Shown in pieces: positions 25,420-45,132 of a DNA stretch of 64,000 bases. The notes beneath the pieces were generated by a model. The model was not told where the DNA came from and searched no databases. It worked only from the letters and a program-made list of their open reading frames with translations. The translations under genes were made by a program, and so were the position numbers. The stretch is from Desulforhabdus amnigena (GTDB lineage Bacteria > Desulfobacterota > Syntrophobacteria > Syntrophobacterales > Syntrophobacteraceae): the NCBI RefSeq assembly GCF_027925305.1, contig NZ_BSDR01000001.1:4172501-4236500 (forward strand). The letters are read 5' to 3'. Each line of letters opens with the position of its first letter. Position 1 is the stretch's first letter.

Positions 25420-26778
25420 ATGAAGCGGAGCCAACAACAGACCTCCTCACTCAACATCCTGGTTGTGGATGACGAGACCAACATCCGCAAGACGCTTTCC
25501 TATTGTCTCGCAGTGGAAGGGCATACCGTGATTGCTGTGAGCAATCTCGTCGACGCCATTGATGAAGTCCGGAGACGTTCTTTCGACATGGCGTTTGTGG
25601 ATCTCAAACTGCGGCAAGAGAACGGCATGGATTTGATTCCTGTACTGGCAGCTGAATCTCCCTGGACGAAAACCGTCATTATCACAGCTCATGGATCTAT
25701 TGAAAGCGCGGTGGAGGCCATACGGCACGGGGCTGCCGATTATATCCAGAAACCCTTTACTCCAGACCAAGTCAGACTGCTGACTCAACGGATCATCAGG
25801 ATTCGGGAACTGGAAAACGAGATCACCGTTCTCAAGGAGGACATGCAACGCTCTAATCCGGAGACGTCGTTTCAGAGCAAGAACGTTGGTATGCGGCGGG
25901 TCATCGAAACAGCAAAGAAAGCCGCGGCTTCGGAGGCGATCGTGTTGCTTCGGGGAGAAAGTGGTACGGGCAAATCGGCTTTTGCCCGGGCTATCCACCA
26001 GTGGAGCGCTAGAACCGCCAAACCCATGGCCGTGGTGGCATGCCCCTCGGTGCCCGCCGATCTTCTCGAAAGCGAACTCTTCGGGCATGTCAAGGGTGCG
26101 TTTACAGGGGCTGTACGGGACTATCCGGGCAGAATCGCGGTTTGCGAGGGTGGGACGCTTTTCCTGGATGAAATCGCTGACATGGCCCTTCCGGTCCAAG
26201 CCAAGTTGTTGCGCTTCATTCAAGACAGGGAATATGAGAGGCTGGGGGAAGCGACGCCGCGCAGGGCGGACGTGCGCATCATCGCAGCGACCAATGCCGA
26301 TCTCGACAAGCGAGTGGCTGAAGGCCGCTTCCGCGAAGACCTGTTCTACCGCCTCAATGTGATCAGCCTTACCCTGCCACCGCTTCGGGAAAGGCCGGAA
26401 GACATCCTGCCGCTTGCCGAAAAGTTTCTCGCTCATTTCTGCCGTGCCAACCACAAGTCGATCTTCGGCTTCACCGATGAGGTAGCCGCGGCACTAAAGG
26501 GCTACAGATGGCCGGGCAATGTTCGAGAACTCCGCAATACCATAGAGCGAGCCGTGATTTTGGGGAGTGGCGAACAGATCGGCAAGGTCGATCTGCCTGA
26601 AAATATTGCTCCTGCCGCCGGCGCTCCCGCCATCGGTGACCGAGTTCCGCTCTCCGTCATTGAAGAGCTTCATATCCGAAGAATTCTGGCCGACACCTCC
26701 TCACTTCAGGAAGCTGCAGATGTTCTAGGAATGGACCAGGCAACACTCTGGCGGAGGCGAAAAGCTTACGGCATTTGA
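25420..26778 (+). CDS. AlgB-like sigma-54-dependent response regulator
   Basis: A 452-residue NtrC-type activator. The receiver domain (1-125) has the phosphoacceptor Asp61 (FVDLKL), the AAA+ domain (about 150-380) has Walker A GESGTGKS, the sigma-54-contacting loop GAFTGA, and Walker B GTLFLDEIAD; the C-terminal Fis-type helix-turn-helix ends LQEAADVLGMDQATLWRRRKAYGI. That ending, and the KinB-like kinase next to it, resemble the AlgB/KinB pair of pseudomonads. Target promoters are unknown. The sensor kinase starts 170 bases downstream behind a candidate sigma-54 promoter. Confidence 0.9.
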   Translation: MKRSQQQTSSLNILVVDDETNIRKTLSYCLAVEGHTVIAVSNLVDAIDEVRRRSFDMAFVDLKLRQENGMDLIPVLAAESPWTKTVIITAHGSIESAVEAIRHGAADYIQKPFTPDQVRLLTQRIIRIRELENEITVLKEDMQRSNPETSFQSKNVGMRRVIETAKKAAASEAIVLLRGESGTGKSAFARAIHQWSARTAKPMAVVACPSVPADLLESELFGHVKGAFTGAVRDYPGRIAVCEGGTLFLDEIADMALPVQAKLLRFIQDREYERLGEATPRRADVRIIAATNADLDKRVAEGRFREDLFYRLNVISLTLPPLRERPEDILPLAEKFLAHFCRANHKSIFGFTDEVAAALKGYRWPGNVRELRNTIERAVILGSGEQIGKVDLPENIAPAAGAPAIGDRVPLSVIEELHIRRILADTSSLQEAADVLGMDQATLWRRRKAYGI

Positions 26779-26895: not shown

Positions 26896-26916
26896 CATCG
26901 TGGTACGATGATTGTA
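26896..26916 (+). promoter_or_regulatory. Candidate sigma-54 promoter and operator dyad upstream of the KinB-like kinase
   Basis: TGGTAC-N5-TTGTA at 26901-26916 keeps the -24 GG and the -12/-24 spacing of sigma-54 promoters, with T for C in both elements. It overlaps a dyad CATCGT-GGT-ACGATG (about 26896-26910). The expected start lies about 20 bases before the kinase ATG. Visual match only. Confidence 0.4.
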
Positions 26917-28796: not shown

Positions 28797-29522
28797 ATGG
28801 AAAAGAGACCGATTCTTATAGTGGATGATGAAAAGAACATCCGCCTGACGATGTCCCAATCTCTGGAACCCCTGGGAATGCCCGTCGAGACGGCGGTAAA
28901 CGGTGAAGATGCGCTGCAAAAACTTCGTGAAAAACAGTTCGGGCTGGTATTTCTGGATCTCAAAATGCCGGGCATGGATGGAATGGAGGTGCTGCACCGG
29001 ATCAAAGAGAAGTGGCCCAAAATGCAGGTGATCATCGTCACGGCTTACGGGACCGTGGAGTCGGCCGTCGAGGCCATGAAGATCGGGGCAGCCGATTTTC
29101 TCCAAAAGCCGTTCAGCCCGAGCGAAATTCGTGAGCTTGCAGCCAAAGTTTTAGAGCGCGAAGCCCTGGATGAAGAGAGTGCTACGGGTTACTTGACCCT
29201 GGTTGAACTCGCCAAACGCCACATCAGCGATAGGAACTTCGATACGGCGCTCAAGTTCACTCAAAGAGCCATTGCTGCAGACCCGGCCCAGCCCGAGGTC
29301 TACAACCTGTACGGGGCACTCCTGGAGATCAAAGGCAACCGGCTCGAGGCTCAAAAGTTTTATCGGGCCGCCCTGGACATTGACCCTACCTTTAAACCGG
29401 CAAAAGCCAACCTGGATAGAACCGCTTCCTGGCATAAGTTCGGTAAAATCGAACTCGAACCCGACCGGGAAGGAGCCGAACAGAAGAAGGAAAGTCGCGA
29501 GGGTGCGAAAGGTAAAGAGTAG
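28797..29522 (+). CDS. Response regulator with receiver and TPR domains
   Basis: A 241-residue protein with an N-terminal receiver (acceptor Asp54 in FLDLKMPGMDG, conserved Thr and Lys in VTAYG and LQKPF) and a C-terminal helical region at about 130-205 with two TPR-like units (ALKFTQRAIAADPAQPEVYN and AQKFYRAALDIDPTFKPAKA). The last ~30 residues are highly charged. It has no DNA-binding or sigma-54 domain, so it likely acts through protein contacts. It is coupled to the KinB-like kinase and ends about 110 bases from the convergent kdpD end. Confidence 0.88.
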   Translation: MEKRPILIVDDEKNIRLTMSQSLEPLGMPVETAVNGEDALQKLREKQFGLVFLDLKMPGMDGMEVLHRIKEKWPKMQVIIVTAYGTVESAVEAMKIGAADFLQKPFSPSEIRELAAKVLEREALDEESATGYLTLVELAKRHISDRNFDTALKFTQRAIAADPAQPEVYNLYGALLEIKGNRLEAQKFYRAALDIDPTFKPAKANLDRTASWHKFGKIELEPDREGAEQKKESREGAKGKE

Positions 29523-29634: not shown

Positions 29635-30819
29635 CTATGCTCCAGCGTTGGCGATGTATTCTTCGGCCCGGATCTTGTGCGCCTGGGTTTCATATTTTCG
29701 CGTATCCAGAATGACGATGGTAATTCCCCTGGCATCCTCGATAAGGCGCTCGACAATGTTCTTCCTTCCAAGAATCCTTTTCCAGATGGGCTGCGTGCCC
29801 GGACTTCCGATCACGATGTGCCCCACACGGTATTCTTTCGCAAAACGCAGGATTGTGTCGGGAACGTCCTCTCCTTTATACGTGAAGACCATGGCGCCAA
29901 GCTGCCTGGCCAGGGTCAGGGTGCCGGAGAGGATGTTCTGGGTGTGGGAATCAATCATGGTGGGTGCTTCCGAAGGGGTCTGAACATATACGGCGTACCA
30001 GTTCCGGTTGAGTCTTCCCGCAAGGCGCGAAGCGTAGCGAAGGAGCTTTTCGCTGTTTGGGCCGCGTGAACTGAGGCACACCATGATCTGATCGGGTGTT
30101 GCCGGTATTTCAGGCTCCAGGGTTTCGCGGCTCCTGAGATCGATCTGCGAGGCAAGTTCCCGCAATGTGAGTTCGCGCAACTGTTCCAGGTTCGTTTTCC
30201 TGAAAAAGTTTGCAAGAGCCGTGTCAATGCGTTCCCTCGGGTAGATCTTCCCCTCTTCGAGACGCTTCTGAAGATCTTCAGTGGTAAGATCCACGTTGAC
30301 GATCTCATCCGCATCGGCGATCACACTGTCCGGAAGGCGTTCGCGCACTTTGATTCCCGAAATTTTTTCCACTGTGTCGTAGAGGCTTTCTACATGCTGA
30401 AGATTGAGGGTGCTTATGACGTGAATGCCGGCAGAAAGGAGATCCTGAACATCTTCGTACCGTTTGGCGTTCCGGCTGCCGGGAACGTTTGTGTGAGCGA
30501 GTTCGTCGACGAGTGCGACCTCGGGTTTTCGTGCAAGAACAGCGTCCACATCCATTTCTTCGATCATGATCCCGCGGTATTCCTGGCGGCGACGGGGAAT
30601 GACCTCAAGACCTTCGATGAGGGCTGCCGTTTCTGCGCGGCCATGCGTTTCCACTAGACCGACCACGACATCGAGCCCTTCTCTCTTGAGCCGATGGGCC
30701 TCTTCCAGCATCTGCCAGGTCTTCCCAACCCCTGCGCAGTACCCGAGATAGATCTTGAGGCGACCGCGCCGGGAGCGGCGAATCATACGCAAAAAGCTGT
30801 CGGCCCTGTTTGCAGCCAT
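29635..30819 (-). CDS. kdpD: KdpD sensor half only (KdpD N-terminal plus USP domain, no kinase)
   Basis: A 394-residue soluble protein that matches only the N-terminal cytoplasmic half of KdpD. The KdpD domain (about 18-230) has Walker A GYCAGVGKT at 26-34 and DELAHTNVPGSR; a universal-stress-protein-like domain follows at about 255-380. E. coli KdpD continues with four membrane helices, HisKA and HATPase; all are absent, and the natural stop lies before any such sequence. Short KdpD proteins are known from cyanobacteria, where a separate kinase is presumed. It is the last gene of the kdp run, 11 bases after kdpC. It may sense K+ or nucleotides and signal to the kinase at 35595. Confidence 0.93.
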   Translation of the reverse strand: MAANRADSFLRMIRRSRRGRLKIYLGYCAGVGKTWQMLEEAHRLKREGLDVVVGLVETHGRAETAALIEGLEVIPRRRQEYRGIMIEEMDVDAVLARKPEVALVDELAHTNVPGSRNAKRYEDVQDLLSAGIHVISTLNLQHVESLYDTVEKISGIKVRERLPDSVIADADEIVNVDLTTEDLQKRLEEGKIYPRERIDTALANFFRKTNLEQLRELTLRELASQIDLRSRETLEPEIPATPDQIMVCLSSRGPNSEKLLRYASRLAGRLNRNWYAVYVQTPSEAPTMIDSHTQNILSGTLTLARQLGAMVFTYKGEDVPDTILRFAKEYRVGHIVIGSPGTQPIWKRILGRKNIVERLIEDARGITIVILDTRKYETQAHKIRAEEYIANAGA

Positions 30820-30830
30820 TTCCTCCTTCC

Positions 30831-31454
30831 TTATCGTTTTCCATCCAGATCAAGGTTCAATTCCAGTACGTTCACTCGAGGTTCGCCGAAGAGTCCTAAA
30901 TCGCGTCCTTCGGTGTGAGTCTCTATCTTCCTGTGAACAATCTCCTGGCTGATGCCGCGGGCCAGAGCGACGCGGCGCGCTTGCAGCAGGGCGTTTTGCA
31001 CACTGATATGAGGATCCAGGCCGCTTCCCGAAGTCGTTACTGCGTCGGCGGGAATGGGGATACTGTCTACCAGCCCGTTTTCCAGACGATACCTGGCGAT
31101 ACGCTCCCGGACAGTATCGATGAGCTTTTCGGACGTGGGGCCAAGATTGCTTCCGCCGGAGCTTGCCGCATCATAGCCCTCACCTGCCGCCGAAGGGCGG
31201 GAATGAAAGTAACCGGGACCGGAAAATCCTTGGGCAATGAGGGTTGATCCCGCAGCTTTCCCTTCCCGGGTGATCAGGGAGCCGTTGGCTTTTTCTGCGA
31301 AAATCCCCTGGGCCATGCCCCAGACGATCAGGGGATAGACACCGCACAGGATGATGGCCAGGGAGAGTGTGGCAATGATGGAGGTGCGGAGTTCAGCCAC
31401 AAGGTTCCTGATATCAAAACGATTCGTATCTGGAAAATCTTTCATGGTTTTCAT
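30831..31454 (-). CDS. kdpC: Potassium-transporting ATPase KdpC subunit
   Basis: A 207-residue single-helix membrane subunit that stabilises KdpA-KdpB and helps ATP use. One N-terminal membrane helix (about 25-50, LSLAIILCGVYPLIVWG) precedes a periplasmic domain with the family segments YFHSRPSAAGEGYDAASSGG, SNLGPTSEKL and SGLDPHIS. Length is normal. AGGAGGAA sits very close to the first ATG; an ATG three codons on is an alternative start. It begins six bases after kdpB. Confidence 0.95.
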   Translation of the reverse strand: MKTMKDFPDTNRFDIRNLVAELRTSIIATLSLAIILCGVYPLIVWGMAQGIFAEKANGSLITREGKAAGSTLIAQGFSGPGYFHSRPSAAGEGYDAASSGGSNLGPTSEKLIDTVRERIARYRLENGLVDSIPIPADAVTTSGSGLDPHISVQNALLQARRVALARGISQEIVHRKIETHTEGRDLGLFGEPRVNVLELNLDLDGKR

Positions 31455-31460
31455 TTCCTC

Positions 31461-33494
31461 CTAAACGAGGTGCAACGCGTTGACCAGGAGGTCAATGAGC
31501 TTGATACCGACAAATGGTGCAGCTAGGCCGCCAAGCCCATAGATCAGGAGATTTCGGCGCAGGAGGACCGAGGCATCGAGAGGGCGGAACCGTACGCCGC
31601 GAAGCGCAAGAGGGATCAGGGCTATGATGATGAGGGCGTTGAAGATGACCGCACTCAGGATCGCGCTCGCAGGAGAGCCGAGTCGCATCAGGTTCAGGGG
31701 ACCGATGACCGGAAATGCGTTGACCAGCATTGCCGGAATGATGGCAAAGTACTTGGCCACATCGTTTGCGACGCTGAAGGTGGTAAGGGCCCCCCGGGTC
31801 ATGAGCATCTGCTTTCCGATTTCAACGATTTCGATGAGCTTGGTCGGATTTGAATCGAGATCCACCATGTTGCCTGCCTCCTTGGCTGCCTGTGTGCCCG
31901 TGTTCATGGCAACACCCACATCTGCCTGAGCCAGGGCGGGAGCATCGTTTGTGCCGTCTCCTGTCATGGCAACAAGGCGTCCCGATGCCTGCTCCTTTCG
32001 AATGAGCGCAAGCTTATCCTCCGGCCTGGCTTCTGCCAGGAAGTCATCAACTCCTGCCTCTTTGGCGATGGCTGCTGCAGTCAACTGGTTATCGCCGGTG
32101 ATCATCACGGTCTTTATTCCCATGGCGCGGAATCGTTCGAAGCGATCCTTCAGGCCTCCCTTCACGATGTCTTTGAGGTGAACCACACCAAGAACCCGCT
32201 TGCTGTCGGCAACGACCAGAGGGGTTCCCCCCTTCTGGGAGACCGTCTTCACAGCCGATTCTACCTCCGGCGGGAAGGGACTGGAGATGAAATCCCTCAT
32301 TGCTTCAGCAGCGCCCTTGCGGATTTTTCTAGCCTCCAAATCCACACCGCTCATGCGGGTCTTTGCCGAAAAGGATATGAACTCGGCATGGGGCATCTCC
32401 GTTATGGATCGGCCTCTCAAGCCATATTTCTTGGCCAGGATAACGATGCTCCTGCCTTCGGGGGTTTCGTCCGTAAGAGAGGCCAGTTGCGCCGCATCGG
32501 CCAACTCCTCCACGCGCACTCCCTCGGCCGGAAGAAATTCCGTTGCCTGGCGGTCCCCAAGAGTGATGGTCCCGGTCTTGTCGAGAAGAAGCACATCCAC
32601 GTCCCCTGCGGCCTCCACGGCTCGACCGCTCATGGCGAGCACGTTCTTTTGGACCAGCCGGTCGATTCCTGCAATTCCAATGGCGCTCAGCAGACCGCCT
32701 ATGGTCGTTGGAATAAGGCAAACCAGCAGTGCCACAAGCACTGTGACGGAAAAAATGACATTTGAGTACATGCCAAAGAGCTTGAAGGTCATGATGGCAA
32801 CCAGGAAAATAACCGTAAGAGCCGAAAGGAGGATAGTGAGAGCGATCTCGTTAGGGGTCTTCCGGCGGCTTGCCCCTTCCACAAGGCCGATCATACGATC
32901 GAGGAAACTTTCGCCGGGATCGGCCGTGACGCGGACCTTGATCCAGTCCGATAAGACCCGCGTTCCTCCCGTAACCGCACTGCGGTCCCCTCCGGCCTCG
33001 CGGATAACCGGGGCGGACTCCCCCGTTATGGCCGATTCATCCACTGTCGCCACACCTTGGATGATTTCTCCATCCGCCGGGATGATCTCGCCTGCTGAAA
33101 CGAGTACGAGATCTTCTTTCCGCAACTCATCGGCGGGAGTTTTCTCCATCGAACCGTCAGAGCGCAGCCGGTTTGCAACAGTTTGCGTGCGCGTTTTTCG
33201 CAGGGCGCCGGCCTGGGCTTTTCCTCGCCCCTCGGCAAGCGCTTCGGCAAAGTTTGCAAAGAGCACGGTAAACCAGAGCCAGAGCGTTACCTGGAGAGTG
33301 AAGGCAAGCGGTTCGCTTCCTGCACTCAAAATGAGCCCGACAGTAGTCGTGATGACCGCTGCGACTTCAGTTACGAACATGACGGGGTTTTTCGCCATTG
33401 AGCGAGGATTGAGCTTTTTTATGGAATCAAAGGCCGCCTGCGTCATGATTTCACGATCGAAAAAAGAGTGCTTTCTTGCAGCCATGGCTTTCAT
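31461..33494 (-). CDS. kdpB: Potassium-transporting P-type ATPase, catalytic subunit KdpB
   Basis: A 677-residue P-type ATPase that hydrolyses ATP to drive K+ uptake through KdpA. The phosphorylated residue is Asp305 in [23 protein letters not shown] is the actuator loop and [17 protein letters not shown] the hinge. The N-domain segment ([15 protein letters not shown]) is typical of KdpB. An ATG three codons into the frame is an alternative start. It lies between kdpA and kdpC with gaps of five and six bases. Complete and intact. Confidence 0.97.
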
Positions 33495-33499
33495 TCCTC

Positions 33500-35239
33500 C
33501 TAAAACAGCTTCCCTGATCCGGTCATGAGGAAGTGCTCGACGATGGGGGCAAGAGAGAGTGCCGGCAGAAAAGTGAGAGCCCCGACAATGAGAACCGTTC
33601 CCACCAGCAGGATCACAAAGGTTATACCGGAGACGGGAAAGCTGCCTCCGCTTGCCGGAACCCGCTTTTTAGCAGCAAGATTTCCGGCAAGGGCCAGGAC
33701 GGACACAATGACAAAGAACCGCCCGGCGAGCATCGCTATGGCAAGTGTGACGTTGTACCAGGGCGTGTTGCCGGCAAGACCGGCAAAGGCGCTTCCGTTG
33801 TTGCCGGAAGTGGAGGAGTAGGCGTAGAGGATTTCACTCAGCCCGTGTGGGCCGGTGTTGTTGAGCCCCGCAAGCCCCCAATTGCTCACCGCCGCCCAGG
33901 CTGTAAAGCCCAGAATGGAAAATATGGGCACGAGTATGGCAATGGCACTGACTTTTACATCATAGGCCTCGATCTTTTTTCCGAGGTATTCGGGGGTTCG
34001 TCCGATCATCAGCCCCGCCAGGAACACGGTCAGCACAACAAAGATGAGCATTCCATAGAGACCGGCTCCGACGCCGCCAAAAACCACCTCTCCCAGCTGG
34101 ATATTGAGAAGAGGAACGAGGCCTCCCAGGGGCGTGAAGGAGTCATGCATTGAGTTTACCGCTCCGCAGGAGGCGTCTGTTGTAATGACGGCAAAAAGGG
34201 CGGAGTTGAAGATTCCGAAGCGGATCTCCTTTCCTTCCATGTTCCCATGGGATGCATCTATGCCAAGAGCGTGCAGCCTGGGGTTTCCTGCGGCCTCCGA
34301 AGCCCATGTGACCAGAACCCCGGCAAGGAACAGCATGGCCATAGCGGTCCATAACGCCCACCCGTGCTTCTGGTTCTTGACCATTCGTCCCAGAGTGTAA
34401 GTGAGTCCGCTCGGTATGAGGAAGATCGAGAGCATCTGGAGAAAATTGGAAAGGGGCGTCGGGTTTTCGTAAGGGTGAGCGGCATTGGCATTCATAAATC
34501 CCCCACCGTTTGTTCCCAGCATTTTGATTGCCACCTGTGAGGCCACGGGGCCCTGGGCAATGGTTTGGGTGGATTGGGTAAAGGAACTCCCTTCTGCCTG
34601 TTCGATCGTTTGGGCCGTAACATATGGATGAAAGTTTTGAACGACGCCCTGTGAGACCAGGAAAAGAGAGTAGAGAACACAAGCCGGCAGAAGCAGGTAT
34701 AGATTGATCCGGACGAGATCCACCCAGAAGCTGCCGATAGTCTTTGCGGAGTGCCTTGCAATGCCGCGAATGAGGGCTGCCGCCACCCCGATTCCGGCTG
34801 CGGCTGAAACAAAGTTGTGAAAAACAAGCCCTACCATCTGGGAAAAATAGGAAAGGGTGGATTCTCCTCCGTAGTTCTGCCAGTTTGTGTTCGTGGTGAA
34901 GCTCACCGCCGTATTGAAGGCAAGGTCGGGGCTTACCGGCCCAAATCCTTGCGGGTTCAACGGTAGGAAGTGCTGCAGTCGCAAAATCGCGTAGGTAAAC
35001 AGACACCCAACCAGGCTGAAGACGATGAGAGAAAAGGCATACTGCTGCCAGCTCTGTTCCTTTTCCGGCTCTATGCCCAGAAAGCGGTACAACAGGCGTT
35101 CTAATGGCCGCATGAGAGGGTCGAGAAATGTCTTGCTCTCTCTATCCAACACGCCCACCAGGTACCTCCCCATGGGCTTTGTGAGTAGAAGGAGCAATCC
35201 CAGAAAGAGCGCCAACTGAATCCACCCGAAGATGTCCAT
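33500..35239 (-). CDS. kdpA: Potassium-transporting ATPase channel subunit KdpA
   Basis: A 579-residue membrane protein of the SKT superfamily, the selectivity-filter subunit of the Kdp pump. About ten membrane helices and pore loops are visible, including [26 protein letters not shown] and [12 protein letters not shown], corresponding to filter regions. I chose the ATG at 35239 ([14 protein letters not shown]), which matches the family N-terminus and sits behind an AAGGGGG stretch. kdpF ends 16 bases upstream. Confidence 0.96.
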
Positions 35240-35255
35240 TGATCCAATACCCCCT

Positions 35256-35339
35256 TTAGAATTTCTCCGGTCGAATGATTGTAGCAAACAGGTAGATGAT
35301 CAGAATCACTCCAATAATGCCTACAATTGCATCCATCAT
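35256..35339 (-). CDS. kdpF: KdpF small membrane subunit
   Basis: A 27-residue single-helix protein (MMDAIVGIIGVILIIYLFAT, ending IIRPEKF). KdpF of E. coli is about 29 residues and stabilises the Kdp complex in the membrane; the size, hydrophobic profile and PEKF-type end fit well. Start ATG at 35339 (or the adjacent 35336) follows AGAGG eight bases upstream. Easily missed because the frame stays open upstream to 35480 through repeat sequence. It is first of the kdpFABC genes. Confidence 0.9.
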   Translation of the reverse strand: MMDAIVGIIGVILIIYLFATIIRPEKF

Positions 35340-35399
35340 GATTTGAGCCTCTCGAAAGCCTTCACCAGCAAAGCGCAAAGGCCGAAGAAAAACACTATT

Positions 35400-35465
35400 G
35401 ACAGAATACAAATAAGATTCAACATAAGGTCTTTCTCTGTGCCCTCCGTGTCTCTGTGATTTATA
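35400..35465 (-). repeat. Dispersed CACGGAG-type repeat fragment, inverted
   Basis: The minus strand contains CACAGAGACACGGAGGGC, matching the 4390 copy in the opposite direction. It lies in the 255-base gap between the kinase gene and kdpF, next to family B copy 2. The gap therefore seems built largely of repeat debris; a kdpF promoter within it was not identified. Confidence 0.5.
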
Positions 35466-35472
35466 TGAAAAA

Positions 35473-35585
35473 AGGCTCATGGTTCATAGCTCATGGCTTA
35501 TGATAACATCGCCAAGAGCGTTTCCCGCTTTCCATATTGGCTTGCATCTCTTTGCCTTTTTCATTTTTCGTTGTGACCGTTCCGG
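35473..35585 (-). repeat. Intergenic repeat family B, copy 2 (inverted)
   Basis: The reverse complement of this stretch matches 18808-18938 over nearly its whole length, with small gaps and a shorter CATGAGC-type tail. It lies immediately after the stop region of the kinase gene and upstream of kdpF. Confidence 0.85.
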
Positions 35586-35594
35586 TCATGGGAG

Positions 35595-37436
35595 TTAATG
35601 TGACAATGTCGAGTTAAGTGTGCGGTCAGCGCGTTTCAAGCAGAACGTAAAGATGCTGCCCCGTCCTTCCTCGCTTTTCACCCTTATGGTTCCCCCGTGG
35701 GCTTCGACAATTTCTTTTGCTATGGAGAGCCCCAGCCCTTCTCCCGTTTCGCCTTCCTGAGCGTCAATGCGGAAAAATTGCTCGAAAATTCGATCGAGAT
35801 ATTGAGCCGGAATGCCTCTTCCCGTATCGGAAACCGAAAAACAAACCGAATCCTCGTCCGCTTCTGCGGAAATGGTGACTTCGCCGCCAGGCGAAGTGTA
35901 CTTGATGGCATTGGAGAGGAGATTTGCGAAGACATGCCCGATCTGGGCCTGATCCGCCAAGACTTCAGGAAGATCGTCCGAGAGCTCCGTCTTCAGGGTG
36001 ATTCCACGGTTTTTTGCTGTATTCCGGAAGGAGTCAACCTGTTCGAGGATCATCCCATGGGGAGCTACGGGCCGAAACTCCATCCGTACCTTTCCGGATT
36101 CGATGCGACTCAAGTCGAGAAGATTGCTCAAGATGGAATGCAGCCGGTCGCTCTCATCCCGTGCTGCAACTAAAAGCTCGACCTGTTTTGAGGTCAGGGG
36201 GCCCGCCTTTTCTTCGAGGAGGAGATAGATCGCCAACCTCAGAGAAGTCAGGGGCGTCTTCAACTGGTGGGAGACGGTCGATATGACCCCTCTTTTGAGC
36301 TTGTCCTGCTGCATCCGGCTGGTTACATCTTTCAAGATCAGGATGACACCTGTGGGCAGCCTTCCGGCATCAAGGATAGGAATGGCTTCAGGGCAAAAGT
36401 AGTGCTCCTCACCTCTGATGAATCTCTGAATGATGGTCTGCTTGCCCTGGGATTGGACGGTGCGCCTGCTCCTCAAGGCTTCGTCAAAAAGGTCTCCCAT
36501 CCATGTGAAAGTGAGGCTGTGGATGGGCACATCGGGTCTGAGGCCAAAGACATCGGCGGCTCTCTCTGTTGCTATTTCCACATGCCCTTCGAGGTTGATT
36601 ACAGCCACGACATCGGGCAGGCTCCGAAACACCTGCTGGATCAGGTGCTGGATACGAATCATCCTGGTACGGTTACTCCTCCGGAATTCTCGAAGGCTCG
36701 AGGTCATCTCGTTGAATGCCTCGGAAAGGCGGCCGATCTCATCGCCTGAATCCCTTTGAACGACAAGGTCAAGATTCCCCTGTCTGATTTCATCAGCCGA
36801 GCGAATGAGGCGGTTGATCGGACGAAGGATCCACCTTCCTGTAAAGAGGGTGAACAGAACAGCAACGACAGCTCCACAGAAAAGAAGGATGTACATCCGA
36901 TGCCTTGCCGCCGCTGCAGCGGCAAGTGCGCGTTCGTTGGCATCGAGCATGTTCTGTTGATTCATGTGAAGGATCTCGTCGGCCGTATTCTTGATTTGAT
37001 GAAAGAGTGGAAAGAGTTTCGTGAAATAGGCTTCCCGCCGGTCGTCAAGAGGGAGTCCCGTGTCCTGCACTTCCTGCAGAGAAGCCTTGTATTGACTGAA
37101 AAGGTCCCCAATGCGTGTCGCCCTTTCGGCTTCACCCGGAAGAGTGATGTTATTCAACGCCGTGTGAAGCGACTCCTCGAAGACGGGTATGCTTTTCGTT
37201 ATGAGCTCCTTTCCCTGTTCGGTATCCCCAAGAAGGGTGAAGAGAATACCGCTGTCCATGCGTTCAAGAGAATCTTTCATCTGCTGAGATGCAATGACGC
37301 TCCGGTAGTTTTCATGAAGGATCACGTCGATGGAATGGCCGAGAAGGGTAAGCTGCATAATGCTTTGAACACTGATGGCGATGATGATGAGGAACAGCCC
37401 CCCAAAACCTAAGGAGAGCTTTTCTCGAATGCCTAA
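35595..37436 (-). CDS. KinB-like sensor histidine kinase upstream of kdpFABC
   Basis: A 613-residue membrane kinase. Helix 1 is at about 9-30, the periplasmic domain carries NYRSVIASQQMKDSLERMDS like the kinase at 26949, helix 2 is near 185-205, then HAMP, PAS (about 270-370), HisKA with His390 in STVSHQLKTPLTSL and HATPase with NLLSNAIKY, DTGRGIP and GEGLGLSI. Start at 37436 follows GAAGGAGGACG. No receiver gene is coupled to it. It is transcribed toward kdpFABC and the kinase-less kdpD, so it is the natural candidate for the missing KdpD kinase activity; this is inference. Confidence 0.88.
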   Translation of the reverse strand, partial: LGIREKLSLGFGGLFLIIIAISVQSIMQLTLLGHSIDVILHENYRSVIASQQMKDSLERMDSGILFTLLGDTEQGKELITKSIPVFEESLHTALNNITLPGEAERATRIGDLFSQYKASLQEVQDTGLPLDDRREAYFTKLFPLFHQIKNTADEILHMNQQNMLDANERALAAAAAARHRMYILLFCGAVVAVLFTLFTGRWILRPINRLIRSADEIRQGNLDLVVQRDSGDEIGRLSEAFNEMTSSLREFRRSNRTRMIRIQHLIQQVFRSLPDVVAVINLEGHVEIATERAADVFGLRPDVPIHSLTFTWMGDLFDEALRSRRTVQSQGKQTIIQRFIRGEEHYFCPEAIPILDAGRLPTGVILILKDVTSRMQQDKLKRGVISTVSHQLKTPLTSLRLAIYLLLEEKAGPLTSKQVELLVAARDESDRLHSILSNLLDLSRIESGKVRMEFRPVAPHGMILEQVDSFRNTAKNRGITLKTELSDDLPEVLADQAQIGHVFANLLSNAIKYTSPGGEVTISAEADEDSVCFSVSDTGRGIPAQYLDRIFEQFFRIDAQEGETGEGLGLSIAKEIVEAHGGTIRVKSEEGRGSIFTFCLKRADRTLNSTLSH

Positions 37437-37467
37437 CATGCTTTCGTCCTCCTTCGCCAGTTTATGA

Positions 37468-37483
37468 AGCAATCAACATGCCG
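37468..37483 (-). promoter_or_regulatory. Candidate sigma-54 promoter upstream of the kdp-linked kinase
   Basis: On the minus strand CGGCAT-N5-TTGCT keeps the GG and GC dinucleotides at -24/-12 spacing. It has two mismatches in the -24 element; the -12 element TTGC is perfect. A start about 12 bases downstream would leave a ~20-base leader with the Shine-Dalgarno of the kinase gene. Confidence 0.45.
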
Positions 37484-37973
37484 CCGAGAGTATTTTGGGG
37501 ATATTCTTCAGATAACCCGCCAGACACTGCGTCCGAGACCTCACAGGGAACAGACGTTAGAAGGAACTACTCGGAATCATGATATGAATTACAGAGCGTT
37601 CTTGATGGATATGGCCCGAACCAGAAGCAAGCCTTTGAGAGTGGATGAGCATCAAATGATTTACATTTCCTGGATGTTGGCTAAAAGCCAACTTATTCAA
37701 TAATCCAACATTTTGTGCCCATTATCAAGAAGATGTTGTTGTGGTTATCAGGTACGGGCATTGCGAAGTGCAAAGCTGAATCGCTTCAGGCATTGCATTC
37801 TGCAAAACCCATCGAGCGGTCCCGGGGTGGCCCGGACAATTTGTTGCCTGGGTCTAAAGGACATAAGGTTTATTACCGCTTGACGGTTTTTTGGAGCCTC
37901 TTGTCCTGCGAACACGGCCGACAAGTGGTCGTGTCAACTATATAATGGATGGCGTAATGGCGATCTTGAGCAC

Positions 37974-39133: not shown

Positions 39134-39526
39134 TTATTCAGGATCCTGACGCTCTGGTGAGGTTGGAGAATTTTCTCCGCCCAGCAATAAGAGGTTGCAG
39201 CGGTCATAACGATCACAGAGTCGGTCTACGATGGAGTCCTTCCACAAGGGTATTCCCGAGAGGTAGGCCGCTCTGCCGATCATGTGGGCGGCAATGGGAG
39301 CGGTCAGGACGACAAAGACTATGATGGCCAGGCTGCGACTGATGATCTCGATGACCGGATACTTGACCGCTACGGCGAGAAGGAGAAAACCGACGCCCAA
39401 CGTCGAAGCCTTTGTTGCCGCGGACAATCGCATGAAAAGGTCGGGCATGCGCAGGATTCCAAGCCCTGCAATACACATGAACACGGCTCCTGTCACCATG
39501 AATATCGAATACAAAACCTCTTGCAT
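39134..39526 (-). CDS. mrpG: Mrp cation/proton antiporter subunit G
   Basis: A 130-residue membrane subunit with three helices, including ITGAVFMCIAGLGILRMPD-like family sequence (VTGAVFMCIAGLGILRMPDL) and the RLSAATKASTLG loop. The last ~35 residues are a hydrophilic tail beyond the usual MrpG end. Last gene of the Mrp operon, 12 bases after mrpF. Part of the seven-subunit complex that exchanges Na+ (or K+) for protons. Confidence 0.92.
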   Translation of the reverse strand: MQEVLYSIFMVTGAVFMCIAGLGILRMPDLFMRLSAATKASTLGVGFLLLAVAVKYPVIEIISRSLAIIVFVVLTAPIAAHMIGRAAYLSGIPLWKDSIVDRLCDRYDRCNLLLLGGENSPTSPERQDPE

Positions 39527-39538
39527 CCCCTACTCCTT

Positions 39539-39829
39539 TCATCTTTCCTCAGCATTTTCACGGTGGGAAATCCTGATCAGGTAATATGAAAAGGCGATTG
39601 TTCCCAAAAAGGCGACAAGCGCCAGGATGATCGCTACGTCCAAAAAAACCGGCTCACCGGTTGCGATTGCATAGATCCCAATGATGCCGATTGCCACTGT
39701 GGACATCAGGTCGAGGGCGACCACACGGTCCGGAAGGCTCGGTCCGCACACCATGCGAATGAAAGCAAAGACAAAAGCCAGGCTCAGGAGGGATACTACA
39801 ATGATCAAGGTAAGGCCCTGCATGTTCAT
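39539..39829 (-). CDS. mrpF: Mrp cation/proton antiporter subunit F
   Basis: A 96-residue subunit with three hydrophobic helices and the family segment RMVCGPSLPDRVVALDLMSTVAIG containing the conserved Pro and Asp. Its start overlaps the stop of mrpE by four bases (ATGA), so translation is coupled. Confidence 0.93.
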   Translation of the reverse strand: MNMQGLTLIIVVSLLSLAFVFAFIRMVCGPSLPDRVVALDLMSTVAIGIIGIYAIATGEPVFLDVAIILALVAFLGTIAFSYYLIRISHRENAEER

Positions 39830-40299
39830 CGAAGGACCTCCATTACCCGGCGCTCGAGACCTTCCTTGATGCTCCGCCTGAACTCTTCGACATGATCTAT
39901 GTACATAGCATGGATGTAGAGCACCTTCCGGTCCGTCGATACGTCCAGACTCAACGTGCCGGGAGTGAGGGTGATCAGGTTCGCGAGCAGGGTGATCTCC
40001 TCATCTGTTTGAACATCCAGGGGAATATCGACTACGCCGGGTCGCATGTGGTGATAGGGGGTTACGATGTCGTGAGCCACACGCAGGTTCGCTTTGACCA
40101 ACTCCCGCCCGAAGAAGAGGCTGAAAGAGAGGACTTGATAGACTTTTGAGAAGTAGTTGGAAGGCGCCGTAGACCTTTGGATCATCCAAAGGATCACATA
40201 AGCCAGAGCAAAGCCTATGATGAAGTTTATGGGTTCGAACAATCCGGTGACTGCAACCCAGGTGAACGCAAGCAGGATGTTTGAAAGGAATGCCTTCAT
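39826..40299 (-). CDS. mrpE: Mrp cation/proton antiporter subunit E
   Basis: A 157-residue subunit: N-terminal hydrophobic region ([21 protein letters not shown]), then a cytoplasmic part with [21 protein letters not shown] and [18 protein letters not shown], both typical of MrpE/MnhE. Overlaps mrpD and mrpF by four bases on each side. Confidence 0.94.
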
Positions 40300-41807
40300 A
40301 TAGGACCTCCCAGTACGGTTCGAATGTATTCCTCGGGATTCAATAACTGTTCTGCAGCACGACTTGCAAAGGAAATCACCGGTTCTGGAGCCAACCCGAT
40401 GAGCAATGTCAGTGATGCCAGGAAGGCGATGGGTGAAAGGAAAGCGAAAAGACTGCCTCGGGAGATAGGACGTGAAATTTCTCCGGGATCATGATCTGCC
40501 GGGGGGGATTCCTTCCAGAATACCTCGGACCAGATCTTGATCATAGAAAACAGAGTCAAGAGGCCCACAAAAAGTGCGACGGTCACGATGAAATACTCTT
40601 TGATTTGCAGACCCGCCTTGGCCAGAATGAACTTCCCCCAGAAACCGGAAAGGGGAGGAATTCCGGCAAGAGACAGGGCGGGAACCAGGAACAGGAATGC
40701 CAGAAAGGGATGAGAAATGTAAAGTCCTCCCAGGGCCTTCAATTCGTAGGAACCCCGAAGTCGATGAACGACGCCGCTCACCAGGAAAAGGTTTGTTTTC
40801 ACGATGATGTGATGGGCAATATAAAAAATGGATCCTGCAAGAGCCAGGGGGGTGAACAATCCCAGCCCAAGGATCATATAGCCGATCTGACTGATGATAT
40901 GAAAGGACAGAATACGGCGAAACTGCATCTGCGCAGCCGCTCCGAGCACTCCCGTGATCATGGTGAGCCCGGCCAGAATGACGATGAGAGAATGGGTGTA
41001 TTGCACATGGTGGACGAAAAGCAATGTGAAGACGCGGATGAGCGCATATACGCCCACCTTGGTGAGCAATCCTGCGAAGATGGCCGATACCGGAGCGGGC
41101 GGAGTGTGATAGGACGCGGGCAGCCAAAAGAAGAGAGGGAAAATCGCCGCTTTGATGCCGAATGCCACCAGAAACAGCATCGCTATGGCGGTCATTAATC
41201 CCGATTTTATGATGATATCGCAATGCATGGCCAGGTCGGCCATGTTCAAAGTTCCCGCCACGCCGTACAGAATGCCTATGGCCGCCAGAAAGAGGGCGGA
41301 AGAAATGAGATTGAGCGTGACATATTTTATGGTGCCTTCCAATTGAGCCCGCTCGCCACCCAACCCGAGCAGGACGAACGAAGCGATCAACATCACCTCG
41401 AACCAGACATACAGGTTGAAAATATCGCCCGTCAGAAATGCGCCGCATACCCCCATGAGCAATACATGCAGCAGAGGATAATAACCGAAATTTTCCCTCC
41501 CAGGGTCCATGCCCGCCAGGGAATAGACGGAGACCGCAAGGCCGACCAGACCGGCCAACACCACCATGGATGCGCTGAACAGGTCCGCGACCAGAGTGAT
41601 TCCGAAAGGAGCGGGCCAGTTTCCCAGCTGGATGGCATGGATGCCATTTTCCCATACGGAGGAAAAAAGGCAAACAGCCGCCGCCAACAAAGCCGATGCA
41701 CCCGCGACGTTGAGGAATCGCTGTGCATGGCGATGCTCCCATGCAAGAAGTGAGGCGATGGCTGTGAGAAAGGGAACCAGGATGGGGAATAGAAGCAGCA
41801 GTTTCAT
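40296..41807 (-). CDS. mrpD: Mrp cation/proton antiporter subunit D
   Basis: A 503-residue polytopic subunit homologous to the NuoL/M/N proton-channel subunits of complex I, with about 14 helices. [23 protein letters not shown] carries the conserved Glu of the channel, and [30 protein letters not shown] the conserved Lys/His helix. No Shine-Dalgarno is visible before its ATG, and a 124-base gap separates it from mrpC, the only large gap in the operon. Confidence 0.95.
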
Positions 41808-41931
41808 ATTATGGAGGCAATCTCTCTATATTCGGTTTTTGAGAAGGTTCATGAGCGAATTTTTATGCTTCGTCGATGGGAACGATCGGATGTCCGAAAA
41901 CCGGCGGTCAAGGGTGCATCCTTTCAATTTT

Positions 41932-42285
41932 TCAGTCCAAAGAGTCGGTGGACTGCATTTCGTCCAAATCGTCCGAGCCGACCGTTTCATAGAACCTCCG
42001 GATCAAAGCTGTTGCGAAGGCTTGAACGCCAAAGCCGATGACAATGGCTGTGAGAATCAATGCCTCCGGAATGGGGTCTGCAAAAGGGGGCATGAGCCGC
42101 GTGTCCCAGGTGTGCAATACGGGAGGATGGCCCCGTGTGAGCCGGCCCATGGTGAAAATGAGCAGGTTCGCGGCATGCCCGAGCAAAGCGAGCCCGATGA
42201 TCAGTTTGACGATGTTGCGTCGCATCACCAGGTAAAACCCCGCCGCATAGAGGCCGCCGATCACGAAAGAGAGTGCGACTTCCAT
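41932..42285 (-). CDS. mrpC: Mrp cation/proton antiporter subunit C
   Basis: A 117-residue NuoK-like subunit with three helices. The segment [28 protein letters not shown] carries the family helix, and the [24 protein letters not shown] stretch the conserved ending. GGAGGAATAGA precedes the start, and its start follows the mrpB stop by one base. Confidence 0.94.
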
Positions 42286-42286
42286 T

Positions 42287-42694
42287 CTATTCCTCCGCCA
42301 GAGAAAAAATAATGGTCAAGGTTACACCGATCACCACGAAATAGACTCCAAGATCGAAAAGGAAAGGGGTCCCCACTTTCCCGATAACGGGCAGATTCTC
42401 CTTCAACCACATGCCTGTCATAAAGGGTTTGCCGAAAAAAAGAGAGAAGCTTCCACTCCCGGCGGCGATGATCAATCCCACGCTGATCAATATTTTGGAA
42501 TCTAATCTGATAATATTCTTTGCCTTTTCGATCCCGGCGTTGAGGGTATAAAGAGCAAACGCCGCCGATGCCACTAACCCCCCCACAAACCCGCCTCCAG
42601 GTTCATTGTGGCCCCGCAAAAGCAGGTGCACCGAGAGCAGCAGTAAAAGCGGCAGAAGATAACGCGTTGCAGTGGAAAGAATGAGAGAGGTCAT
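42287..42694 (-). CDS. mrpB: Mrp cation/proton antiporter subunit B
   Basis: A 135-residue subunit with four helices and the family signature [22 protein letters not shown]. It overlaps the end of mrpA by four bases. The MnhB-related domain at the end of MrpA is separate, so this is the normal group 1 arrangement with seven genes. Confidence 0.95.
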
Positions 42695-45024
42695 GGCGGT
42701 TTCCTCAAAAATTTACCTGATTTTTCTTCCCCTGTCTTTCCGGCTTTCAGTTTGAGCAGTGCGTAAACACCCACGGCAGCCACGGAAAGAACCGTGATTT
42801 CCCCCAGAGTATCAAATCCTCGAAAATCCACCAGAATCACGTTCACCACGTTGCGACCTCTTGCCAGTTCCAGTGCATTCTCGGCAAAATAGGGAACAAG
42901 CCGCGCCTCTCTCTCAATAGCGGTGGCGGCCAGGATCAGAGCCGTGAACAATCCTCCGGACACCAGCGCCGCTGCGGCGTCCCGGGTGCGTTCCATTTTT
43001 GTAGAGTAGGCTTTGAACCTCGGGAGCCGAAAAATGACGAGCACCAGTAAGACGACAGAGAGGGTTTCGATGGAAAACTGAGTCATGGCCAGGTCCGGTG
43101 CGCTGAAGAGAAGGAACACCAGCGCAACCCCGTAACCCACGACTCCCAGGGCTACGACAGCGGTCAGTCTGGACTTGGACCGAACCACCATGAGGGCCGC
43201 CATGAGTATGGAGCCGGCAAGCATGGCTTCGTAAGGCCGAAGGTCCATCCATCTCCAAAAGCCCGCCAGCACGTCTTGTTCCGGAAGCCGACTTCCCACC
43301 AAAACGATGGTCGACATGATGACGATGAGAAGATAAAGATGAAGATGGCCGCTCTGAAGGAACCTTGTCTGAATACGGCAAATCCCCTCCAGGACTTTCA
43401 GCGAAGCATAATACCACTGGTTGGGTCCCCACCGAGCTGAAGAATCAAGGGGTATCAGAGTCCGTCGTATACCGGACCATCCAAAATAGAGGGTGATGCC
43501 CGCCAGGAAAACGCCGACACTCAGAAGAAGTTTGGGGTCGAACCCATGCCATAAAACCACTTCGGTGAATATGGCTTGCGCGTCTATGGCGGAGAGCGCA
43601 GGGGCGATGAGCCGTTCTGAAATGAGGTCGGGCTTGAGCCCGAACAACGCGCCCAATACGGCCAGGAGCAGCGGACCGACCCATAGAGCGAAAGGCGCCT
43701 CATGGGGCTCCCTGAGGAACGGCGTTCTCTTACCGAAGAAAGGCTTGAATCCCACGATCCCCGCCGCGGTCACAAAGGAAGCGCTCGCCAGTACGGCAGC
43801 TCCCGTCAACAGGTATGCCTGTGAAGTCGAAAGGGTGGCCTGGTACATCAGTTCCTTGCCGACGAATCCCAAAAACGGGGGAAAACCTGCGCTGGAAAGA
43901 GCCGCCAGGCCCGCAGCCAATGCCGTGATGGGCATGGATTGTAACAGCCCCCCGAGCCGTTCCGCTTCTCTTGTCCCCGTCTCGTGGTCCAATATCCCCG
44001 CCACCAGGAACAACGCGCCTTTGTAGAGAGCGTGCGCCAAAAGAAGGACCAGGGCCGCTTGAATTGCGGCTGTGCTGCCCAGACCGAGCAACAGGGTCAG
44101 AATGCCGAGTGCGCTGACGGTCGTGTATGCGAGGATGCGTTTCAGGTCCGTATGCATGAGAGCAAGATAGGCGCCTGTGAGCATGGTGAAGCCGCCCACA
44201 GGAAGGACCAGATGCATCCAGAGCTCCGTTCCGCCGAGAATAGGAGTGAACCGCGCCAGCAAATAGATTCCGGCCTTGACCATAGTGGCCGCATGAAGAT
44301 AGGTGCTCACGGGGGTCGGTGCCTCCATGGCATTGGGAAGCCAGAAATGGAAGGGAACTTGGGCGGACTTGGTGAAGGCTCCGGCGAGTACGAGCAGCAG
44401 TATGGGTGTGTAGAGAGGATGAAGCCGGATGGAATCGCCCAGGCTCGCCAAAGTGGAAATTTCCAGGCTTCCACCGGCTTCTCCTAAAAGGAGCAGTCCG
44501 GCCAGCAACGCAAGCCCTCCCGTCCCCGTCACGAGAAGCGCCTGCAGCGCTGCCGACCTTGCTTCTTCCCTTTTGTGGTCGAAGCCGATGAGAAGATAGG
44601 AACTGATGCTGGTGAGTTCCCAGAATATAAAGAGGGCGATCCCGTTGTCAGCCAAAACCAGCCCCAGCATGGAGGCCATGAAGAGCAGCAAAAAACTGTA
44701 AAAACGGCTCAGTTCCGGGTGATGGGTCAGGTATGCACCTGAATAAAAGAAAACCAGTGTTCCGATTCCGCAGATGAGGAATACAAAGAGGAGGCTCAAG
44801 CCGTCCAGATAAAAGTTTAAATGGACTCCAAGATTGGATACCCATGGGTATTCAAAAGCCAGTTTTTCTCCGGATGCGATAGACGTCGTGAATTGGGCAA
44901 AGTAGAGCATCAGAGTAACAGGGAAAACCGACAGGAGCCACCCCGTCTTCCGGCCCGTCATACGGAAAAGCCCTGGTTCCGCCAATGCCAGGATAAAACC
45001 CGATAAGACAGCGAGAAGCATCAT
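42691..45024 (-). CDS. mrpA: Mrp cation/proton antiporter subunit A
   Basis: A 777-residue NuoL-like subunit with about 20 helices. The first ~500 residues are the proton-translocating module ([46 protein letters not shown]); the C-terminal part carries the MrpA-specific [21 protein letters not shown] segment and ends with the [19 protein letters not shown] domain. I chose the ATG at 45024 (GGAGAGACC upstream). The order A-B-C-D-E-F-G equals the classic Bacillus mrp operon. Confidence 0.95.
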
Positions 45025-45132
45025 GGTCTCTCCAATTTCAAGTTGCGTGACATCCCAACAGATCGAAGGGATCACAAACTTTTTTGCGGGCCTTTTCCCT
45101 GTGTATCCTCGAAAGAGCGGCCGTTGTCATCG

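Follow-up and report, generated by a model that had tools for sequence, protein, structure and literature searches.

The stretch of Desulforhabdus amnigena DNA analyzed here (contig NZ_BSDR01000001.1, positions 4,172,501 to 4,236,500; 64,000 nucleotides, hereafter the window) carries the genes of the potassium pump KdpFABC together with a shortened KdpD and a separate membrane histidine kinase, which we call HK1. Judging from the sequence and its conservation, we consider it likely that the pump is subject to two separate controls: its transcription would be driven by HK1, an NtrC-type response regulator and sigma-54, and its activity would be shut off post-translationally by KdpD. The circuit is a further, well-documented example of a split circuit which is already published, and not a new one. 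An earlier note on this DNA had pointed out the short KdpD and the separate kinase; that observation is confirmed, and the interpretation attached to it is partly supported.

The window lies within a 4.54-Mb single-contig genome whose genus-mate among the compared genomes is G026. On the minus strand, the genes read HK1, an open reading frame (ORF) of 29 codons, kdpF, kdpA, kdpB, kdpC and the KdpD gene. On the plus strand, an NtrC-type response regulator, a second histidine kinase (HK2) and a receiver-TPR protein form a row which ends towards kdpD.

The short KdpD

29635..30819, minus strand: short KdpD, 394 residues; Pfam domains KdpD (17-226) and Usp (244-351) only

As the earlier note described, the protein ends after its KdpD and Usp domains; it has no transmembrane segments and no GAF, DHp (histidine phosphotransfer) or CA (catalytic) domains. 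It is the sole match to PF02702 in the 4.54-Mb genome and DUF4118 has no match anywhere in it; the missing half of KdpD is therefore not hidden behind a frameshift. KdpE, reported absent from the window, was not found in the whole genome either: none of the three OmpR-family regulators of the genome is a KdpE. Two of them reach 156.7 and 143.6 bits against the KdpE model, for which the cut-off is 325, and for the third KdpE does not appear among the 25 of 30 family matches listed. One of the three just passes the heavy-metal regulator cut-off, and the others match BaeR and PhoB best, both below cut-off. A full-length KdpD/KdpE pair elsewhere in the genome, named in the note as evidence which would overturn its proposal, was looked for by the PF02702, DUF4118 and OmpR-family searches and was not found.

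The description of this KdpD as 'kinase-less' does not hold. Silberberg 2024 describes the N-terminal domain of KdpD as an atypical serine kinase which inhibits KdpB; in the same account the short KdpD of Deinococcus geothermalis exerts this action under cyclic di-AMP (c-di-AMP) control, and KdpDs devoid of histidine-kinase domains go with the absence of KdpE (PMC11018627). The catalytic residues named there for E. coli (G36 K37 T38, W39, D109 E110 and R190) have their equivalents here in G32 K33 T34, W35, D105 E106 and R186, at a constant offset of four and with the Walker A and B motifs kept. They are retained across the 49 aligned KdpDs, except that W is replaced by Y in L116 and L118 and by F in L157. 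The short KdpD is thereby predicted to be a serine kinase of KdpB. One could also regard it as a functionless relic of a lost full-length KdpD, given that the membrane and histidine-kinase parts are gone. This is very improbable: the residues tested in E. coli persist throughout the alignment apart from the three W changes, and in alignment A1 the three closest relatives match it at 76-82% identity.

The Usp domain keeps the published c-di-AMP consensus, (A/G/C)XSXSX2N(Y/F) (PMC8214093), only in part: C248, S250 and N255 are present, while R252 replaces the second S and S256 the Y/F. Diadenylate cyclase is found in 26 of 26 family genomes. Against NCBIfam, the protein scores 371 bits with NF038185 (KdpD_non_kinase), below the curated cut-off of 550; its best match by E-value is the full-length model NF007793, with 384.7 bits against a cut-off of 1123.

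All five longer KdpDs scanned by Pfam carry a C-terminally fused EIIA 2 domain of the phosphotransferase system (PTS), a domain which the window KdpD does not have. The KdpD-Usp-EIIA fusions are:

L058:10056-11756
L061:9931-11694
L120:9989-11695
L152:10001-11674
L154:5878-7686

In E. coli, EIIANtr binds KdpD. No paper titled on a KdpD-EIIA fusion was found among those listed, although a list of titles cannot establish that nothing has been published.

The sensor kinase HK1

35595..37439, minus strand: HK1, membrane histidine kinase with a helical sensor; HAMP, PAS, HisKA (His391) and HATPase_c by Pfam

HK1 reads into kdpFABC, and the statement that it is transcribed toward kdpF (35256-35339, also minus) stands. 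Its frame opens with a TTG (35595-37472) and the likely real start is the ATG at 37439. Counted from that ATG, the phospho-acceptor histidine is residue 391 and not 390 as first given. For the sensor, the only Pfam match is the sub-threshold 4HB_MCP_1 (20.5 bits, cut-off 27), and the structure model, whose global confidence is low (pTM 0.34), suggests a sensor of four helices.

The name 'KinB-like' can be kept as an architectural label only. No KinB sensor family is among the Pfam matches of HK1 at E 0.001. The best 50 of 1446 Foldseek matches comprise chains of histidine kinases, LOV kinases and phytochromes; not one of these 50 is named KinB or matches the sensor alone. Membership of HK1 in the KinB family is unsupported by Pfam, the structure model and Foldseek.

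The NtrC-type regulator and the rearranged gene order

25420..26778, plus strand: NtrC-type response regulator; Pfam Response_reg and Sigma54_activat, GAFTGA loop, Fis-type helix-turn-helix with DQATLW helix
26949..28787, plus strand: HK2, a paralog of HK1 (35%); ATG start inferred from the sequence
28797..29522, plus strand: response regulator with TPR repeats (RR/TPR), the partner gene of HK2

When the kdp-associated NtrC of G026 is used as query, the gene at 25420-26778 is retrieved at 603 bits and 61% identity, and the next best of the 26 listed genome matches reaches 331 bits and 41%. From this gap in score, the window gene is clearly the ortholog of the regulator which precedes HK1 in the relatives, relocated to the other flank. 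The claim that the kinase lacks its own receiver gene is consequently right for the flanking gene only.

Sixteen family loci were fetched around KdpD. NtrC, HK1, the kdp pump genes and KdpD stand in line on one strand in 12 of them, with NtrC immediately next to HK1. L059 and L068 are truncated where their contigs end; L066 shows the tail of NtrC at the locus edge and has no pump genes beside KdpD; for the genome of L071, part of NtrC is seen before HK1 in the longer locus L134. The order NtrC-HK1-kdp is seen in G049, a single contig of 4,990,251 bases from the family of the window. In the window itself, no NtrC precedes HK1, and the HK1-kdp block is inverted relative to NtrC, with HK2-RR/TPR between them. 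The HK2-RR/TPR pair occurs elsewhere in the same-genus genome G026, where it stands without NtrC; for this reason it probably represents an insertion beside NtrC.

A predicted sigma-54 promoter and a putative operator

37468..37483, minus strand: predicted sigma-54 promoter CGGCATGTTGATTGCT, 44 to 29 bases ahead of the start codon (ATG) of HK1; score 13 of 15
37793..37805, minus strand: putative operator TTGCAGAATGCAA, upstream of HK1
37761..37773, minus strand: operator-like TTGCACTTCGCAA, with a single mismatch in its half-sites; spaced 32 bp from TTGCAGAATGCAA
26802..26814, strand not assigned: putative operator copy TTGCATTTTGCAA, just behind NtrC
26901..26916, plus strand: degenerate sigma-54-like site TGGTACGATGATTGTA, before the HK2 ATG at 26949; tentative, its GC element reads GT

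A sigma-54 site just before HK1 is present in the window and in all 14 relatives scanned. To gauge chance, 14 upstream stretches (the window and 13 relatives; that of L071 was shortened by the fetched region) were each resampled 1000 times with a first-order Markov model. The window site CGGCATGTTGATTGCT was equalled in 4 of 1000 resamples; 13 sites were matched at most four times and that of L064 26 times. Equally high-scoring sites are present in other parts of the window as well, so that the evidence for a promoter is the conserved place. Directly upstream of the window NtrC, no site scores at least 12 (the best reaches 9.5), so that the NtrC gene itself is probably not driven by sigma-54. 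The scans demand GC, and TGGTACGATGATTGTA was read in the sequence and is unscored.

The palindrome TTGCA-N3-TGCAA (TTGCANNNTGCAA) has eight sites in the 4.54-Mb genome, versus one for a reversed-pattern control. One of the eight lies upstream of HK1 and another in the NtrC-HK2 gap. The latter was not used in deriving the motif, and by simple arithmetic on eight sites in 4.54 Mb the chance expectation for that 170-bp gap is about 0.0003. Upstream of HK1, the same form is found in the window, L058, L060, L061 and L066; L062-L065, L067, L069, L070, L072 and L073 have TTTCA-N3-TGAAA or a half-changed version of it.

These two forms appear to change together with the recognition helix of NtrC. DQATLW is read at all helix-readable loci which have a perfect TTGCA site (window, L058, L060, L061, L118 and L141), and also at the edge of L066. 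DSVTLW or DSVTFW goes with TTTCA half-sites at 11 distinct loci (L062-L065, L067, L069, L070, L072, L073, L131 and L132), and no DSVTLW locus has a perfect TTGCA site.

The sites bear on a further explanation, in which NtrC now serves HK2-RR/TPR, HK1 uses another regulator or none, and kdp is constitutive or otherwise controlled. NtrC stands directly before HK2, with an operator and the degenerate sigma-54 site between them, and HK2 is a paralog of HK1. However, the promoter and operator of HK1 are kept in a form which fits the helix of this very NtrC, and the HK2-RR/TPR pair does without NtrC in G026. We regard this explanation as unlikely.

Outside the window, two TTGCA-N3-TGCAA sites separated by 88 bp are located at L170:6552 and 6640 (G000:C1:412552 and 412640), upstream of a 695-residue protein with weak receiver similarity. 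By eye, its neighbours resemble a Usp protein and a Kup transporter. The pair is possibly a second target of the regulator, or that of another one.

Co-occurrence in the phylum

For a broader view, 395 genomes of the phylum were drawn evenly, and at most seven KdpD and three histidine-kinase candidates per genome were fully scored. A kinase was counted as HK1-type at 700 bits or more; a short KdpD was a frame of 340-619 residues, EIIA-fused forms included. HK1-type kinases occur in 26 of the 395 genomes: 24 have a short KdpD, one a KdpD fragment and one none. The kinase lies within 12 kb of KdpD in 19 of these 26. It is found in none of the 22 genomes with only full-length KdpD and in none of the nine with a KdpD of 620-779 residues.

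Viewed from the other side, 40 genomes have a short KdpD, and HK1 accompanies it in 24 of them at 700 bits and in 29 at 450 bits. Five further kinases, at 456-510 bits, stand beside short KdpDs. The Fisher value for the co-occurrence is 1e-25, a figure which ignores shared ancestry and serves as description only. The joint occurrence of short KdpD, HK1-type kinase and NtrC-type regulator, on which the earlier note had made its proposal depend, is strong, though 16 of the 40 short-KdpD genomes are without a 700-bit HK1.

Loci without the pump

The loci of Chlorobiaceae have NtrC, in many cases a permease of 664-685 residues, then HK1, kdpFABC in some loci and not in others, and KdpD. For the permease of L148, the one tested, KimA is the sole PDB match (6s3k, E 4e-65). 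Ten genomes have an HK1-KdpD locus which lacks the pump: five of them have KdpA elsewhere and five have no KdpA match. Three further genomes (L140, L143 and L126) have a KdpA match, which brings the count to 8 of 13. The genomes with no KdpA match are Chlorobiaceae metagenome-assembled genomes (MAGs) of unstated completeness (L145, L148, L152, L154 and L155), in which KdpB was not searched for. In four of these five, a permease ORF of KimA size lies between NtrC and HK1. Their KdpDs keep the catalytic residues, with ratios of non-synonymous to synonymous change (dN/dS) of 0.09-0.14; they do not group together on the KdpD tree, and some of the divergence may be older than the loss of the pump.

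In L132, L133 and L137, an HK1-KdpD-NtrC cluster lies away from the kdp pump, with NtrC truncated at the edge of the contig in L133 and L137. Each of these clusters carries a sigma-54 site and a putative TTTCA operator of its own ahead of HK1, and KdpA is found elsewhere in all three genomes. Those of L132 and L137 follow TRAP transporter genes (DctM and DctQ by Pfam, in L132 only).

Such loci bear on a three-component reading, as the earlier note supposed. Here, the short KdpD would be the cytoplasmic input module of HK1, reporting potassium, c-di-AMP or, if fused, the PTS state; KdpD, HK1 and NtrC would form one split sensor and the pump would be only one of its clients. HK1-type kinases do track short KdpD across the phylum, Chlorobiaceae loci retain NtrC, HK1 and KdpD without the pump (half of ten such genomes being without a KdpA match), the serine-kinase residues are conserved, with the dN/dS values just given, and the clusters of L132, L133 and L137 stand apart from kdp. 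On the other hand, the KdpA found elsewhere in the other half means that KdpD may act on KdpB in trans, and the five MAGs with no KdpA match are limited by their unstated completeness, their scatter on the tree and the possibly earlier divergence. We hold this reading to be possible but rather doubtful.

A related proposal can be advanced only tentatively, and we would sooner expect it to fail than to hold: KdpD (often EIIA-fused in the relatives), HK1 and NtrC might be a free-standing potassium-signalling module which outlives the pump and is coupled, in Chlorobiaceae where KdpA was not found, to a KimA-type potassium transporter, the KdpD serine kinase having a second client, HK1 or KimA, besides KdpB. 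No related paper on KimA in Chlorobi was found by titles, which do not prove absence in print. Genomes which seemingly keep a short KdpD without the pump offer a direct test of KdpD roles beyond the inhibition of KdpB.

Two proposed controls on one pump

The favored scheme, with separate transcriptional and post-translational control, can be laid out as follows. Membrane-bound HK1 would sense low potassium or a linked envelope cue and would phosphorylate the NtrC-type regulator at 25420-26778, a partnership suggested by orthology and gene order. NtrC would occupy the TTGCA-N3-TGCAA sites which lie ahead of HK1 and, together with RNA polymerase carrying sigma-54, would fire the predicted promoter at 37468-37483; both the sites and the promoter are conserved in sequence. 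A single operon would then be expressed, comprising HK1, the 29-residue ORF, kdpF, kdpA, kdpB, kdpC and KdpD. Once potassium is restored, the short KdpD, made together with the pump, would phosphorylate Ser160 of KdpB and switch the pump off, as residues identical to those tested in E. coli suggest. The order NtrC-HK1-kdpFABC-KdpD of the relatives has been rearranged in this genome.

Several observations weigh against this scheme. HK2 follows NtrC immediately, and in this genome the two could be partners. The c-di-AMP consensus is, as said, incomplete in the Usp domain. The match between helix and operator comes from what are in essence two clades, which makes it one or few independent events, and hybrid half-sites are found in both helix groups (L117 and L136). 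Upstream of the promoter, the operators of the window are at a distance of about 280-320 bp, beyond the nearest ones in L058, L060 and L061. Furthermore, 14 of 15 DQATLW Chlorobiaceae loci have no perfect operator before HK1; Chlorobiaceae otherwise show imperfect palindromes only, for example CTTGCAAAATTCAAG in the NtrC-KimA gap (read by eye). A close sigma-54 site is missing from 10 of the 15 and present in L140, L142, L144, L150 and L159.

Pump genes, small reading frames and neighbours

30831..31454, minus strand: kdpC; Pfam KdpC
31461..33494, minus strand: kdpB; TGES motif, target serine S160
33500..35239, minus strand: kdpA; Pfam KdpA; the ORF call begins at 35287 and the likely start, read in the sequence, is the ATG at 35239
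35256..35339, minus strand: kdpF, 27 residues; TIGR02115 30.4 bits, cut-off 26.85
35336..35425, minus strand: unannotated single-helix ORF of 29 residues, overlapping the start of kdpF

The 29-residue ORF has no NCBIfam match. Hydrophobic ORFs of comparable size and place precede kdpA or kdpF in 29 of the 35 loci compared, the window included, as judged by eye. These 29, grouped by size and place, include Chlorobiaceae loci, the Acidobacteria locus L158 and the Armatimonadota locus L157. The product is possibly a second small subunit or a regulator of the Kdp pump. We found no paper titled on a second peptide upstream of kdpF; absence in print is not proven by titles. A scan of the window with Rfam gave no kdp riboswitch match at gathering scores.

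A run of membrane genes at 39134-45075 on the minus strand adjoins the kdp cluster; from their sequence, we take these to resemble Mrp Na+/H+ antiporter subunits. TrkA and TrkH potassium uptake genes lie upstream of kdpA in L119 (by Pfam; here directly after HK1) and in L120 (by sequence similarity).

Comparison with known systems

The KdpD/KdpE system of E. coli likewise controls both kdpFABC transcription and KdpB activity. It does so through a single full-length KdpD together with a KdpE of the OmpR type; searches of this genome found neither.

With the Deinococcus geothermalis type, as portrayed in PMC11018627, the window shares a KdpD reduced to KdpD and Usp domains, the Walker A/B, W and R residues, the TGES motif of KdpB, a diadenylate cyclase in the genome and the lack of a KdpE. 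Unlike that type, the window Usp retains just part of the c-di-AMP consensus, and serine-kinase activity is here a prediction. Deinococcus radiodurans has the order kdpBAC-kdpD(N) with a separate sensor kinase and response regulator, the latter needed for induction (PMC5716572). The likeness lies in the truncated KdpD within the pump operon and in the separate kinase and regulator genes. In that description, however, the sensor kinase takes the part of a C-terminal KdpD half, and the regulator is compared with KdpE, whereas HK1 of the window has HAMP and PAS domains and its presumed regulator is a sigma-54 activator.

The parallel with Desulfovibrio vulgaris is the reason why the 'distinct control circuit' of the earlier note cannot be called distinct: the same split with an NtrC-type regulator is published for DVU3334/3335/3336 (PMC3333781). 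Rajeev 2011 reports there that the NtrC-type DVU3334 regulates kdp and that the histidine kinase is 'split into two ORFs', and names a DVU3334 ortholog and its motif in Syntrophobacter fumaroxidans. Kazakov 2015 gives DVU3334 as a GAFTGA sigma-54 regulator of DVU3339.1-DVU3337 (PMC4641369). As far as the published descriptions go, DVU3334-DVU3339.1 and the window both place kdpFABC under an NtrC-type GAFTGA regulator, with a short KdpD/UspA ORF and a separate histidine-kinase ORF. DVU3334-type features of the window are the orthology of its NtrC to that beside kdp in the relatives, and a putative sigma-54 promoter and regulator sites at the head of the operon; orthology to DVU3334 itself rests on the mention of S. 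fumaroxidans in PMC3333781. Besides PMC3333781, no paper on control of kdp by NtrC, sigma-54 or an enhancer binding protein was found by titles, which do not prove absence in print. The two arrangements differ in that the D. vulgaris regulator is in an operon with the pump, whereas that of the window is on the other flank, beside HK2-RR/TPR. In sum, a regulatory observation from one Desulfovibrio becomes a defined module of kinase, activator, promoter, operator and short KdpD which can be traced in Desulfobacterota and Chlorobiaceae.

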